A stretch of DNA of 64,000 nt from Moorella thermoacetica (lineage in GTDB: Bacteria; Bacillota; DSM-521; Neomoorellales; Neomoorellaceae): contig NZ_CP012369.1 in assembly GCF_001267405.1 (NCBI RefSeq), positions 1,080,001-1,144,000 of the forward strand, given 5' to 3'. How positions within the stretch are numbered: position 1 is the first letter of the stretch; each line of letters opens with the position of its first letter. Both the position numbers and the translations under genes were made by a program. The notes beneath the pieces were generated by a model. That model saw only the letters and a list, made by a program, of their open reading frames with translations. It was not told the DNA's origin and searched no databases. Positions 56,886 to 63,766 of this stretch are shown piece after piece.

Positions 56886-57635
56886 TTAATTCTCTATTAA
56901 TCGGGAAGCCAGTTCAGTAATACCTGTAGCAATAAAGGACTGTGTACTGGTAATCCCGGCTGCCTGGTCAAGGATTGCCGGCTGAAAGGGAATAAGGCCG
57001 ATGACCTCACCTGACGGCAAGTGGTTGAGGATGAATTCTTCATCCCTGTGGTGGCGCAGTTTATTACCTATAAATTTTATTTGTTCAATCCCCAGTTCGG
57101 ACGCCAGTTTTTGGATAACCCGGGCAGTCTGGATGCTTACCAGCGTGGGTTCGGTAACGATGAGCATGGTATCTACACCGCGGGCCGTTCCCCGGGTAAG
57201 GTGTTCGATACCTGCCCCCATATCCAGGACAACCATTTCCCGGCGTTTCAGGAGGAGAGAGTTGATCATGGCATTTAAAACAGTATTTTCCCGGCAATAA
57301 CAGGTAGAACCCCCTGGTTTAATAGCCCCCATTTTCAGGAAGAGGATATTATCGTTTTTTATGGTGAAATCCTCTAGCAGACTATCGACCTCCGGGTTTA
57401 AAGCAAAGAAAGCCCCCTCCCCTCCTGTACGTTCGGCAATGATTTGACGCATGTCGACTATTGGCTTTAGGGTACCCAGCCTTTCTTCGGGGAGGCCAAG
57501 GACCATACCAAGACTAGTATCGGGGTCAGCGTCAACGGCATAGACCTGGTATCCCTGCCCGGCAAAGTATTTAATCAAACCGGCGGCAATAGTTGTTTTG
57601 CCGACACCGCCCTTTCCGGAAATAGCCAGTTTCAC
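56886..57635 (-). CDS. cooC: CooC-type nickel insertion ATPase for CODH
   Basis: The 249-residue protein has the deviant Walker A GKGGVGKTTIAA at the N-terminus, the switch motif VVLDMGAGIEHL and the metal-binding CYCRENTV. CooC inserts nickel into the CODH C-cluster. It is the first gene of the acs operon; ATG at 57635. A small hairpin (CCGGAG/CTCCGG) lies in the 116-nt gap to acsA. Confidence 0.94.
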   Translation of the reverse strand: MKLAISGKGGVGKTTIAAGLIKYFAGQGYQVYAVDADPDTSLGMVLGLPEERLGTLKPIVDMRQIIAERTGGEGAFFALNPEVDSLLEDFTIKNDNILFLKMGAIKPGGSTCYCRENTVLNAMINSLLLKRREMVVLDMGAGIEHLTRGTARGVDTMLIVTEPTLVSIQTARVIQKLASELGIEQIKFIGNKLRHHRDEEFILNHLPSGEVIGLIPFQPAILDQAAGITSTQSFIATGITELASRLIEN

Positions 57636-58169: not shown

Positions 58170-58241
58170 GTTGACGGGAAGAGGAATCCCGAAATGAGGA
58201 GATTCGTAAATCATTGCCGGTCGTGAGGAGGGCGGGTTATA

Positions 58242-59564
58242 ATGCTGGCGCTAAGTTTGAGCGAAAGAATGGAAGACCTCCAAATAAAAAAGAAGATGGA
58301 AAAGGAGCTTTTCCAGAGGTTGTTAAACTCTTTTTCTTATGCTACGAGGATGTTTTCCGCCATAACAGATTTGGAAGGAAATTGCATACTCTCCTCCGAG
58401 CAGGGTGATTGCGAGTTCTGCCAGCTGGTCAAATCGAGTCCTACCGGAATGGCCCGTTGCCGGAGTTCTTATGCCTGGGCCGGGGAGCAAGCCCTCAAAT
58501 GGAAAGAGCCTTATATTTTCAAATGCCATGCCGGCCTTATCTCATGGGTCTGCCCCTTTTTCTACAGGGGCAAGCACATCGGGAATTTTATTTGCGGCTA
58601 GGTAATGATGTGGCAGCCCGCCGAATTCTGTCATCACTGGATCAGGGAACTGGCGTCTGAGATAGAGCAGGACCCCAACATTTTGTTACAATCCGTAGAC
58701 AGGGTTAAGTCGGTGTCGTCGGTAGAGATCCAGGCCGCGGCCGATCTGGTCTTTATCATTACCAGTTACGTAGCAAAGAGCGAGGGAGAGATCTTTGACT
58801 TCCAGCAAAAATTGCGAAGAGTCGGTTCCTGGATATGGACGGAAAACAAGAAACAGAAGGATGTCGGGAGCCAGACCGCCGGGGGCAACACAGAGCAGGA
58901 CCTGAGCAAGATAGGGAACCAGATCTTTATGGAGATCAGGAGATCAGATATCGATAAGGCAAAAAAGCTGCTAGAGCAGCTCGTCCTGCAGATTTTTATC
59001 CAGAGCAAGGGGCAATTGGAAGTTATCAAGGGGCGCAGCCTGGAACTCCTGAGCTTCCTTATCCGTACGTCGACCGAATACGGAGTAAAGTTCGGGGAAG
59101 TAATCCACTTAAGCGATCTGAAGCTGAGGGAGATAGACGAGGCTGACACCGTAGAAAAGGCTGTCCTCTGGCTTCTGGCGGTGGGAAACGCCTTTATCGA
59201 GTTGATTGCGGAAAGGAATTCCAGCGAGGGAGAGGGCATAATCGACAGAGTTGTCGAATATATCCAGAAAAACTATAGTTCGGAGAGCCTCTCTGTTAAA
59301 GAAATTGCCAGAGCCAGCTACCTGAGCCCGGCATATCTGGGGCAACTGTTCAAAAAAAAGATGGGCTATTCCCTCACCGAGCACATTAACAAGGTGAGGA
59401 TCGAGCAGGCGAAGCTCTTGCTCAGGCAAACCGAACAGACCATTGAGTCGGTAGCTATACAGACGGGTTTTAAAGAGCGCAGTTATTTCTGCAAGGTTTT
59501 TAAAAAAATTACCGGCTTGAGTCCTAACGAGTATAGGAGAAAGAATTTCTCTCCATTGGTCTGA
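58242..59564 (+). pseudogene. PocR/AraC-type regulator interrupted by an in-frame amber codon
   Basis: ATG at 58242 (GGAGG upstream) opens a PocR ligand-binding domain (CEFCQLVKS, KCHAGLISWVCPFF, GKHIGNFICG). It stops at TAG (58599-58601) after 119 codons. The same frame resumes at once (VMMWQPAEF) and runs 320 more codons through a linker to two AraC helix-turn-helix motifs (LSVKEIARASYLSPAYLGQL and IESVAIQTGFKERSYFCKVF). Full length would be 440 residues. It probably controls the adjacent corrinoid/methanol genes in response to substrate. The downstream ATG pair right after the TAG (58605) might allow a separate DNA-binding fragment to be made. Confidence 0.85.
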
Positions 59565-59613: not shown

Positions 59614-60288
59614 TCAACAGGCATAATCCCTTTCGCGGTCACTGCACCGCCTCACCAGGGATTGGGCGATACTGATGGCCTCACGGGCCGAGCTGCCGTA
59701 GGCGTCCGCCCCGATGGACTCAGCAAACTCCTTCGTCACAGGCCCTCCCCCCACCAGCACCCTGACGCTCTTGCGCAGGTGATGCTTCTCCAGGGCCTTG
59801 ATTACCCTGGCCATTTCGCCCATGGTTGTGGTCAGTAGTGCCGACATTGCCAGAATCTCCGGGCGGTGCTGCTCTACCGCCCTGACAAATTCCGCTGGCG
59901 AGACATTCACACCAAGGTCGACGACCTCAAACCCGGCATAACCCAGGGACAGGGCCACCAGGTTTTTCCCGATGTCGTGAATATCCCCCTCCACAGTACC
60001 GATAACGATTTTCTTTCGCTTCTGGAGGCTTTTTTTGGTGTAAGGTTTTAAGGCGAACAGTCCGGCCTCAATGGCGTGGGAGGCGTTGATTACATCGGGG
60101 ATGTAGAAATCAGCTCCCTGGTATTTGTCCAGGGTCTGGATGGTTGCCGGTATCATGGCCTCTTCCAGGATCTCGTCAGCACTCATTCCCATCTGCAGCC
60201 CTGCATTGATTGATTTCAATACACCATTGGCCTCTCCCCTCAGGATGGCGGAAATAATGTCCTGAAATATCTGGGTACGGCCGTTCAA
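59614..60288 (-). CDS. Orphan corrinoid protein (MtaC/MtgC-like)
   Basis: The 224-residue protein has a four-helix cap domain (residues 1-92) and a B12-binding Rossmann domain with cobalt ligand His104 (GDIHDIG), SALLTTTM and VGGGPV. It is a methyl carrier for a methyltransferase that is not adjacent. It starts with TTG at 60288 with only a weak GGTGAT upstream and a long non-coding leader. It is divergent from the methanol cluster and convergent with the regulator. Confidence 0.9.
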   Translation of the reverse strand: MNGRTQIFQDIISAILRGEANGVLKSINAGLQMGMSADEILEEAMIPATIQTLDKYQGADFYIPDVINASHAIEAGLFALKPYTKKSLQKRKKIVIGTVEGDIHDIGKNLVALSLGYAGFEVVDLGVNVSPAEFVRAVEQHRPEILAMSALLTTTMGEMARVIKALEKHHLRKSVRVLVGGGPVTKEFAESIGADAYGSSAREAISIAQSLVRRCSDRERDYAC

Positions 60289-60675
60289 GGTATCACCGGC
60301 TTTCCTGTTTATTCCTTCGTAAAACGTCCCGGTTGGTTGCGGTATACTAAAGGGGACTCCCTCCGGCGAGGCCGAACCTTCCTACCTGAACACCTTCCTC
60401 CCCCTTCCCGCAAGGGAGCCCCCACCCGAACCGGTCAATATAAATTATACACGACAATTCGCTATAAATTAGCCACAAATTATTGCCTATTTAACATGAT
60501 CTTAATATTGTAGTAACGTATAATTCAAGGCGGGGGTACAGGAAATGGTTCTGATGGATCTGAGACTATCAAAAGGGATGTGATGGCAGGAGCTGGCTTA
60601 TGAACTTAAGTTTAGCACAATTCTATCGATAAAGGAAGCTGGATTAATCCATAACCGGGTTGGGAGGTAGATGCG
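60289..60675. other. Divergent intergenic region between two corrinoid-pathway transcription units
   Basis: In 387 nt I see no gene. The leftward side has an extended -10 (TGTATAAT around 60450) and GC-rich stems (CTCCC/GGGAG type near 60400-60420), giving a structured leader of about 150 nt before the orphan corrinoid gene. The rightward side has a TATAAT near 60520 without a clear -35. Confidence 0.45.
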
Positions 60676-61479
60676 ATGCTCATTGTGGGAGAATTGATCA
60701 ACACCAGTCGCAAACCGATTAAAGAGGCAATTGAAAGGGAGGATGCCGCTTATATCCGCGACATCGCGGTGAAGCAAGTTGAAGCCGGGGCTGATTACAT
60801 TGATATCAACTGCGGAACCCTGATTCACAATGAACCGGAGATCATGGCCTGGCTGGTTAATACCGTGAGGGAGGTAGTGGACGTTCCCTTATGTATCGAC
60901 AGCCCCGATCCCCGGGTACTGGAAACAGGATTGAAGCTGGCGACCAGGGGGCGGCCTATGTTAAACTCCATTACCGCGGAACCGGATCGATTCGAGGCAG
61001 TTTTGCCCCTCGCGAAGAGATTTAACGCCAGAGTGGTGGCCCTATGCATGGATAACGACGGGATACCATCCACCGCGGAGAAGCGAATCGAGATCGTCAG
61101 GAAGCTGGTAGAAAACCTGACAGCGGCCGGTGTCGAGAGGGGCGACATCTACATCGACCCGCTGGTGAAGCCGCTCAGCATCAGCGACCAGGCGGGATTG
61201 GAAGTGCTCGAAGCCGTGGGCTTTATCAGACAGGCTTATCCCGATGTGCACATTATTTGCGGTCTCAGCAACGTCAGTTTCGGGCTACCCAACAGGCGGA
61301 TCCTGAATCAGGTCTTCATGGTACAACTTATGACCGCCGGTATGGACTCCTACATCCTGGACCCCCTGGACAGGGAGATGATGGGTTTCTACCATGCCTC
61401 CCGGGCATTGCTGGGTAAGGATCCTTTCTGCGCCGGCTACCTGAAGGCCCACCGCAGCGGTTTGTACAGGCGTGATTGA
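60676..61479 (+). CDS. AcsE-like methyltetrahydrofolate:corrinoid methyltransferase
   Basis: The 267-residue pterin-binding barrel is a paralogue of AcsE. It keeps the functional residues at matching positions: Asp75 (LCIDSPD), Asp161 (YIDPLV) and Asn199 (GLSNVS). It lacks the cysteine/histidine zinc site of MtaA. Placed 114 nt before mtaC, it probably moves methyl groups between MtaC and THF, making methyl-THF directly from methanol. ATG follows GGGAGGT. MtgA of glycine-betaine systems is the closest functional analogue. Confidence 0.9.
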   Translation: MLIVGELINTSRKPIKEAIEREDAAYIRDIAVKQVEAGADYIDINCGTLIHNEPEIMAWLVNTVREVVDVPLCIDSPDPRVLETGLKLATRGRPMLNSITAEPDRFEAVLPLAKRFNARVVALCMDNDGIPSTAEKRIEIVRKLVENLTAAGVERGDIYIDPLVKPLSISDQAGLEVLEAVGFIRQAYPDVHIICGLSNVSFGLPNRRILNQVFMVQLMTAGMDSYILDPLDREMMGFYHASRALLGKDPFCAGYLKAHRSGLYRRD

Positions 61480-61593: not shown

Positions 61594-62226
61594 ATGCCCA
61601 CTTATGAAGAACTCTCCCAGGCGGTATTTGAAGGTGATGAAGCACAGGTGGTGGAATTGACCAGGAGTTTGTTGAGCGGCGGAGCGGAACCCCTGGAAGT
61701 GATCAATAAAGGTCTGATCGCAGGTATGGACCGGGTCGGCGTCCTGTTCAAGAACAACGAGATGTTCGTCCCTGAGGTCTTAATGTCGGCCAACGCCATG
61801 AACGCCGGGGTGGAGGTTGTTAAGCAGAGCCAGCAAGCCTTTGACATGCCGTCCGTGGGAAAAATCGTACTGGGAACCGTTAAGGGGGACCTGCACGACA
61901 TCGGCAAGAACCTGGTGGCCATGATGTTGGAGAGCGGCGGCTTCACGGTTTACAACCTGGGGGTGGACATCGAACCGGGTAAATTCGTAGAGGCGGTAAA
62001 GAAGTACCAGCCGGACATCGTGGGCATGTCCGCCCTGTTAACCACCACCATGATGAATATGAAATCAACCATCGATGCCCTGATCGCCGCCGGGCTGAGG
62101 GATCGGGTAAAAGTAATCGTCGGCGGGGCGCCCCTCAGCCAGGATTTTGCAGATGAGATCGGAGCCGACGGGTATGCTCCGGACGCCGCTTCGGCCACCG
62201 AGCTCTGCAGGCAGCTGCTTGAGTAA
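61594..62226 (+). CDS. mtaC: Methanol corrinoid protein MtaC
   Basis: The 210-residue protein has the helical cap (residues 1-85) and the B12 domain with cobalt ligand His101 (GDLHDIG), SALLTTTMMNM and VGGAPLS. It accepts the methyl group of methanol from MtaB. ATG at 61594 follows AAGGAGG. It lies between the methyl-THF methyltransferase and mtaB, in the same direction. Confidence 0.93.
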   Translation: MPTYEELSQAVFEGDEAQVVELTRSLLSGGAEPLEVINKGLIAGMDRVGVLFKNNEMFVPEVLMSANAMNAGVEVVKQSQQAFDMPSVGKIVLGTVKGDLHDIGKNLVAMMLESGGFTVYNLGVDIEPGKFVEAVKKYQPDIVGMSALLTTTMMNMKSTIDALIAAGLRDRVKVIVGGAPLSQDFADEIGADGYAPDAASATELCRQLLE

Positions 62227-62335
62227 GACGGCCGGCCGGGTAGACCTGTCGAAGTAGGAAACCCGGGCGGCAGCCCGGGCTATAGCCGGATGACCCTCAC
62301 GGAACCATGGATTAATAATTATGGAGGGAGCCATA

Positions 62336-63766
62336 ATGGATTACAAGCCTGTTAAAACCTTTAGTGAACTGGAGGTCAAATCCCTGGATGATTTCGTCTA
62401 CGGGATTGCGCCCCATCCCGTAAAAGCAAAGAACGGCATGGTGATCGGCGCAGGGACGGTTTACCCCGAGATCAACATGACCCTCCCGCCGATGAATATT
62501 GAGGAAAGCACCATGCCCGAAGTCAGAAGGCAGTATGCGGAGATGATTGAGGGGATTTTAAAGAGGGCGAGGGACCTGTACGCCCCCGGCATCATCGTGG
62601 AACTGGAACTGCTCCCGGAGACTACCATGAAGCCCGAGTGGGGGATCGAGATTAACAAGATCCTGCGGGACAAGATGCACGAGTACGAGGATAAGTACGG
62701 GCTAAAAAGCCTCCTCAGGTGTACCCCCAACGACACCAGGGAGATTCTCAGGCCGCCGCTGATGAAACGGGGCGAACTCCTGGAAAACATGTTCATCACC
62801 TTTGAGAAATGCGCCGAGGACGGGGCTGATATCCTTTCCATCGAGTCCACGGGCGGTAAGGAGGTCCACGATGAAGCGCTTGTCACCTGCAACATCAGGA
62901 AGGCCATCTTTGCCCTGGGTGTCCTGGGGGTCAGGGACATGCGGTTCCTCTGGTCCAATATAGTCAGGATCGCCGAACGGACCGGCGCTATAGCCGGTGG
63001 AGATACGGCATGCGGGTTTGCTAACACCGCCCTCGCCCTGGCGGAACAGGGAATGATCCCCAGGGTGTTTGCGGCAGTGGACAGGGTGGCCACCATCCCC
63101 AGGAGCCTGGTGGCATTCGAAATGGGTGCCATAGGGCCTGATAAGGACTGCGGCTATGAGGGGCCATACATGAAAGCCATCGCCGGGGTACCCATTTCCA
63201 TGGAAGGCAAAACGGCGGCATGTGCCCATTTAAGTGCCATCGGCAACATCGCCGCCTGTGTGTGCGACATGTGGAGCAACGAATCCGTCCAGAACGTCAA
63301 GCTGCTGAGCGCTCCGGCACCCGTGGTATCCACGGAACAGCTCATCTACGACTGCCGGCTGATGAACGAAGCGGCGGCGGACGGGCGCAGCTTCGCCCTG
63401 AAGATGCGGGACTGGCTGACAGCCTCCGATTCCAGGCTGGATCCCCAGGCCTACGTCCTGAGGCCGGACATAGTGCTGGAGATCAGCCAGGAATTGGTTA
63501 AGGAAAAGGACGCTTTCATTGCGACCAAAAAGGCGGCCGCCCTGGCGGCGGAGGTCATTAAGCGGGGCCTGGCCCGGGGCGAAGTTCAGGTGTCCTCCAG
63601 AGAGAAGAAGTGGTTGGACATCATCAGCTCCCAGATTGAAACAATACCCGACGATTGGGAAGAGTTCTGGTACGAAATACAAAAAGAACTGGACCTCGAA
63701 AAATTTAGGCCGGAGGAATATGATTTAGAGGTAATCATGGCCAGAGGAGCTTCCGCAGGGAATTAG
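62336..63766 (+). CDS. mtaB: Methanol:corrinoid methyltransferase MtaB
   Basis: The 476-residue TIM-barrel protein matches archaeal MtaB over its length. Likely zinc ligands are Glu170 (SIESTGG), Cys226 (DTACGF) and Cys272 (KDCGYEGPYMK), corresponding to Glu164, Cys220 and Cys269 of Methanosarcina. It cleaves the C-O bond of methanol and methylates MtaC. ATG at 62336 has GGAGGGA six bases upstream and is chosen over an in-frame ATG at 62321. Confidence 0.95.
   Translation: MDYKPVKTFSELEVKSLDDFVYGIAPHPVKAKNGMVIGAGTVYPEINMTLPPMNIEESTMPEVRRQYAEMIEGILKRARDLYAPGIIVELELLPETTMKPEWGIEINKILRDKMHEYEDKYGLKSLLRCTPNDTREILRPPLMKRGELLENMFITFEKCAEDGADILSIESTGGKEVHDEALVTCNIRKAIFALGVLGVRDMRFLWSNIVRIAERTGAIAGGDTACGFANTALALAEQGMIPRVFAAVDRVATIPRSLVAFEMGAIGPDKDCGYEGPYMKAIAGVPISMEGKTAACAHLSAIGNIAACVCDMWSNESVQNVKLLSAPAPVVSTEQLIYDCRLMNEAAADGRSFALKMRDWLTASDSRLDPQAYVLRPDIVLEISQELVKEKDAFIATKKAAALAAEVIKRGLARGEVQVSSREKKWLDIISSQIETIPDDWEEFWYEIQKELDLEKFRPEEYDLEVIMARGASAGN

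Follow-up and report, generated by a model that had tools for sequence, protein, structure and literature searches.

The 64-kb window analyzed here covers positions 1,080,001-1,144,000 of the chromosome of Moorella thermoacetica DSM 521T (CP012369), which consists of one contig of 2,527,564 bp (PMC4599090). Its gene order, acsC-acsB-acsA-cooC-regulator-mtvC1-mtaA1-mtaC1-mtaB1, agrees with the DSM 521 locus tags given in PMC13391211: Mothe_c11780-11790 correspond to CODH/ACS, Mothe_c11830 to the 675-bp gene mtvC1, and Mothe_c11840-11860 to mtaA1C1B1. The cooC gene lies beside the acs cluster (56886-57635, minus strand). The regulator is followed on the opposite strand by a convergent, conserved partner gene, mtvC1 (59614-60288, minus strand), which encodes a B12-binding corrinoid protein, and then by three intact plus-strand genes: mtaA1 (Mothe_c11840; 60676-61479), encoding methyltransferase II; mtaC1 (61594-62226), encoding the methanol corrinoid protein; and mtaB1 (62321-63766), which encodes the methanol:corrinoid methyltransferase and ends in TAG.

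The regulator frame runs on the plus strand from ATG 58242 to TGA 59562-59564 and comprises 440 codons with a single interruption, an in-frame TAG at codon 120 (58599-58601; genome 1138599-1138601). The 5' part (58242-58598) specifies 119 aa, corresponding to the first two thirds of a PocR sensory domain, and is preceded by a strong Shine-Dalgarno sequence, GAGGAGGG (58225-58232; duplex -12.7 kcal/mol). Downstream of the stop, 320 codons remain open: the 3' part (58602-59564, plus strand) continues in the same frame to TGA and encodes the end of the PocR domain, a helical linker and the AraC DNA-binding domain. It begins with GTA ATG ATG, so that the two ATG codons reported in the earlier note are indeed present, at 58605 and 58608 (plus strand), as possible restart sites. 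An open frame flanking a stop is little proof by itself, since the window holds 22 stops with at least 100 open codons on both sides, mostly in antisense frames or at neighboring genes. Both pieces of this frame, however, match one protein family, which identifies an interrupted gene beyond chance.

With the stop read through, the product matches the Pfam profiles PF10114 (PocR; 151.5 bits, cut-off 23.9) and HTH_18 (77.6 bits, cut-off 33.6), and shows the N-terminal PF10114 domain and C-terminal AraC-type helix-turn-helix of a PocR-AraC one-component regulator. The prediction of a PocR/AraC regulator adjoining methanol genes is thus borne out, mtaA1C1B1 lying beside it. On the uninterrupted frame, the PocR domain covers 58299-58781 (Pfam residues 20-180) and the helix-turn-helix domain (HTH_18 / HTH_AraC) 59304-59543, both on the plus strand. 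The TAG had been placed between the ligand-binding domain and the linker and DNA-binding domain; the intact frame holds, but the stop lies inside the PocR domain, with about 48 profile positions left in the C-terminal piece. In a structure model based on a 15-sequence alignment, the stop falls in the last predicted core strand of the PocR domain (residues 111-122); with a mean pLDDT of 79.8 and a pTM of 0.46, the overall domain arrangement of this model is uncertain. A fold search gave significant matches to AraC-type regulators only, through the DNA-binding domain. Three cysteines of the PocR domain (residues 60, 73 and 95, within 58242-58781) occur without exception in 15 PocR-AraC proteins, even where identity is as low as 23%, and may bind a metal or cofactor.

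The public annotation appears to split the regulator into two genes: counting locus tags, 11800 is left for cooC, and the two spare tags 11810 and 11820 for one regulator between cooC and mtvC1. ATCC 39073, whose locus tags Moth_1203 to 1209 were not found in open papers, may carry a single tag (Moth_1205) at this place.

Codon 120 was compared in 11 orthologues, one genome per species, from a search that may omit near-identical records: four from other Moorella species (87-92% identity, full length, uninterrupted) and seven from more distant relatives (about 45-53%), several of them Syntrophaceticus-type. All 11 carry CAG at this codon, and the frame is otherwise intact in DSM 521, so that the TAG is a C-to-T nonsense mutation; the earlier suggestion of an original Gln (CAG) codon proves right. 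A naturally split, two-protein regulator is ruled out, as none of the 11 orthologues has a stop or a split there, and the reading of a disrupted gene, for which split homologues had been named as the counter-evidence, stands. One wrong base in CP012369 would suffice to produce the stop, yet a sequencing or assembly error is highly improbable given the 382-fold Illumina coverage and Sanger gap closure (PMC4599090). The difference is moreover a substitution and not an indel, and the annotation has two tags left for the regulator.

Both halves of the gene bear the mark of strong purifying selection, from which it follows that the stop is young. Between DSM 521 and other Moorella species, dN/dS is 0.06-0.11 before the stop and 0.10-0.12 after it. 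Had the N-terminal half evolved neutrally throughout the DSM 521 branch, it should have accumulated about 66 amino-acid changes, yet a single residue is unique to DSM 521. At the 95% limit, any neutral period took up no more than about 7% of the branch for the N half and 12% for the C half; these values rest on pairwise counts, few species and a rough branch estimate. Selection analysis, through dN/dS and DSM 521-unique residues, thereby rules out an old pseudogene. We conclude with high confidence that the TAG is a recent nonsense mutation.

TAG is known to encode pyrrolysine in methylamine methyltransferases, in corrinoid methyltransferase settings. The open frame and the adjoining corrinoid methyltransferase operon recall such genes, and would suit a full-length regulator made by pyrrolysine insertion, a suppressor tRNA or a leaky stop. 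However, the DSM 521 genome has no pyrrolysyl-tRNA synthetase (best score 24.2 bits against a cut-off of 178.15, which one control genome passes), no tRNA with a CUA anticodon occurs among the 48 tRNA genes inspected of 52 annotated, RF1 is present, and TAG serves as the normal stop of acsC, acsA and mtaB1. These observations make recoding or suppression unlikely. The gene also differs from pyrrolysine TAG genes in being a regulator whose TAG is not conserved, the orthologous site being CAG and never TAG. Assignment to that class was rejected on the absence of pylS and on retention of the TAG in 0 of 11 homologues. Read-through, one of the outcomes initially envisaged, thus finds no support; recoding is already contradicted, and we give it next to no credence.

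Another outcome would be re-initiation just past the TAG, giving a protein of 318-319 aa that lacks the sensor but has the helical linker and AraC domain, and that would regulate constitutively or weakly. The two ATGs stand 3 and 6 nt past the stop, the structure model sets the break after the core sheet and leaves the linker and AraC helices whole, and the C-terminal half is still conserved. A Shine-Dalgarno-like AGGT (58600-58603, plus strand) precedes ATG 58608, where a restart is possible, but this candidate ribosome-binding site is weak, the best duplex in the stretch reaching -5.1 kcal/mol against -12.7 kcal/mol at the true start. The youth of the stop explains the conservation of the C-terminal half equally well. 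A constitutive activator would, furthermore, entail a small methanol/glucose expression ratio rather than one of log2 9-10, and would leave the absence of growth on methanol unexplained. The constitutive DNA-binding fragment proposed in the earlier note keeps its restart codons, but is at odds with the roughly 500- to 1000-fold methanol switching of mta in adapted DSM 521 (PMC13391211); we regard it as very unlikely.

What the intact regulator does is suggested by its neighborhood. Among 11 Moorella genomes, six have mtaB: four of these carry an intact regulator, DSM 521 the amber allele, and a second Moorella species (G009) a remnant. None of the five genomes that lack mtaB has a regulator orthologue. 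All intact-regulator loci in Moorella share the order regulator, convergent mtvC1, mtaA-mtaC-mtaB, and an mtvC1-type corrinoid-protein gene adjoins the regulator in every closer orthologue. Of the adjacency to methanol and acs genes pointed out originally, only the methanol side is thus conserved: cooC and acsA are not beside the regulator at the four other Moorella loci examined, which makes the acs side a peculiarity of M. thermoacetica. Control of acs, as it might be read from adjacency, is weakened by this. The regulator probably controls mta or mtvC1, most likely as an activator of mtaA1C1B1 and/or mtvC1, a role to which synteny, co-occurrence and strain phenotypes point indirectly. In the accessible parts of the methanol study PMC13391211, the word "regulator" is not used and no regulator is discussed.

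The remnant in G009 consists of only the last 78 codons, adjoining a PD-(D/E)XK transposase fragment (L159 10755-11288), and represents an independent loss of the regulator. The mta operon of this species is nevertheless 88-93% identical, with the direct repeat upstream of it kept. Loss of the regulator is therefore tolerated, at least for some time, and the regulator may be dispensable or replaced in such a case.

This repeat, which lies ahead of mtaA1 (60439-60478, plus strand) and is conserved in six Moorella species, comprises TATAAATTANNCACRA twice in direct orientation at a distance of 24 bp. The two copies are the sole exact genome matches of the core pattern, a count that is partly circular as the pattern was derived from them. 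We regard the repeat as a candidate operator, nothing more. Upstream of the regulator itself, no match to the motif was found when up to two mismatches were allowed. Between mtvC1 and the conserved mtaA1 upstream region, DSM 521 and locus L032 contain about 120 extra bases (60289-60438) relative to four other Moorella species.

Strain phenotypes provide the link to physiology. In a side-by-side test of six M. thermoacetica strains, DSM 521T alone failed to grow on methanol and on H2+CO2, and an older report cited in the same study agrees on methanol; DSM 2955T, a spore-sample deposit of the same 1942 isolate, grows on both (PMC6978639). Other methanol growers with sequenced genomes besides DSM 2955T (CP012370) are ATCC 39073 (CP000232), DSM 7417, DSM 103132 and DSM 103284. 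According to PMC13391211, DSM 521 grew on methanol in another laboratory after three consecutive adaptation transfers, and mtaA1B1C1 of the adapted strain was up by log2 9.0-9.9 on methanol, about 500- to 1000-fold. RNA-seq reads of methanol-grown, adapted DSM 521 are public (PRJNA1358060). Adaptation to H2+CO2 likewise needed several transfers (PMC13040438). In the available portions of these published accounts of adaptation, no statement was found on resequencing of adapted DSM 521 cells. Induction of mta by some 500-fold or more means that methanol control is not abolished in adapted cells: either the culture reverted, or the fragment or another regulator suffices.

Loss of methanol-gene control had been put forward as one consequence of the stop, and the strain comparison makes the connection a good lead, DSM 521T being the only one of the six without growth on methanol while DSM 2955T grows. 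Revertants selected after an activator had been lost would account for these phenotypes, but physiological adaptation or control by a different regulator would explain them just as well. DSM 521T and ATCC 39073 also differ by 992 SNPs and 100 kb in size (PMC4599090), so that many other lesions could cause the phenotype and the stop is one candidate among many. It may be among the main reasons why DSM 521T was reported as methanol-negative, although we incline against this.

The reading that we favor, with moderate confidence, is that a recent C-to-T change in the DSM 521 lineage inactivated the likely PocR-AraC regulator of mtaA1C1B1 and/or mtvC1, or uncoupled it from its signal, with consequences for methanol use. 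In the normal state, we infer, the regulator would turn on these genes in response to methanol or the methyl-corrinoid formed from it. In DSM 521, translation would stop after 119 residues, within the sensor domain, and the DNA-binding part would be made weakly, if at all, through restart at ATG 58608. A damaged activator beside intact structural genes and an intact promoter would leave unadapted DSM 521 with little or no growth on methanol, and growth after serial transfer might arise by reversion, pseudo-reversion or suppression, or by slow use of another regulator. Against this explanation, adapted DSM 521 still controls mta by methanol, G009 has lost the regulator although its mta operon is well conserved and its direct repeat is present, and the failure of DSM 521T on H2+CO2 is not obviously due to a methanol-gene regulator.

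These facts speak for a rival view in which the stop, though real, would be of minor effect, with mta under another regulator and the methanol-negative reports stemming from other differences or from unadapted inocula. DSM 521 encodes two other PocR-domain proteins that are candidates for such a role, a corrinoid-PocR kinase with an AraC-type response regulator and a PocR-GAF-HD protein, and PMC13391211 speaks of adaptation and not of mutation. On the other hand, the intact regulator co-occurs with mtaB in Moorella in a conserved order, strong purifying selection indicates that the protein mattered until recently, and methanol does support growth of DSM 2955T, which derives from the same isolate. 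We consider a minor role of the stop somewhat unlikely and retain damage to the methanol regulator as the preferred explanation.

Overall, the locus shows a genuine nonsense mutation of recent origin in the gene that probably regulates the methanol operon of a type strain; it does not introduce a new type of biology. The case resembles nonsense mutations of regulators in laboratory-kept strains, in that a young stop interrupts a gene that is conserved apart from it, and the strain has been kept since 1942; the mutation may have arisen in the laboratory. DSM 521T being both type strain and workhorse of acetogen physiology, the stop offers a concrete possible reason for conflicting reports on its growth on methanol, and a warning that expression studies of adapted cultures may sample selected mutants. 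It also draws attention to a candidate controller of methanol utilization in Moorella, and to the pairing of PocR and corrinoid-protein genes in several phyla.

Two known systems help to place this regulator. Salmonella PocR, which acts on cob/pdu genes, likewise joins a PF10114 sensor to an AraC helix-turn-helix and serves corrinoid-related metabolism; the Moorella protein differs in scoring only 156.4 bits against the PocR equivalog NF047788 (cut-off 500 bits), in adjoining mta and corrinoid-protein genes, and in the stop inside its sensor. MecA, the PocR-domain histidine kinase of the dichloromethane mec cassette, is alike in that PocR has been proposed to detect the one-carbon substrate of a corrinoid methyltransferase system (PMC9768040), but is a two-component kinase as opposed to a one-component AraC regulator.

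Distant PocR-AraC homologues (25-31% identity) also have a corrinoid-protein neighbor at six of nine loci, with Atribacterota and a spirochaete represented. DSM 521 itself encodes a 607-aa fusion of a corrinoid module (B12-binding_2 and B12-binding), PocR and histidine kinase (L169, genome 2102000-2114000, 5540-7363, minus strand). The gene for an AraC-type response regulator comes next, and mtaA- and corrinoid-type genes as well as one for a RACo-type activator adjoin; the fusion looks like a corrinoid-based methyl sensor in a single protein. Adjacency in one case and natural fusion in the other suggest, from gene arrangement, that PocR domains and corrinoid proteins cooperate in sensing methyl donors. 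By extension, MtvC1 might be a non-catalytic, signal-bearing partner whose methylation or cobalt state the PocR domain senses, making MtvC1 and PocR-AraC the unfused form of the corrinoid-PocR-histidine kinase. This specific proposal is speculative and, in our view, unlikely; if true, DSM 521 would be a natural knock-out of a corrinoid-based methyl-donor sensor.

The pairing of PocR-AraC and corrinoid-protein genes is kept across several phyla, in convergent orientation among Moorella relatives and on the same strand in several distant homologues (59614-60288; L006-L008, L034-L043). The third PocR protein of DSM 521, the PocR-GAF-HD protein with its HD_5 domain (G000:C1:2151367-2151825; L168 4769-6946, minus strand), suggests that a possible cyclic-di-GMP phosphodiesterase may also receive PocR signals.
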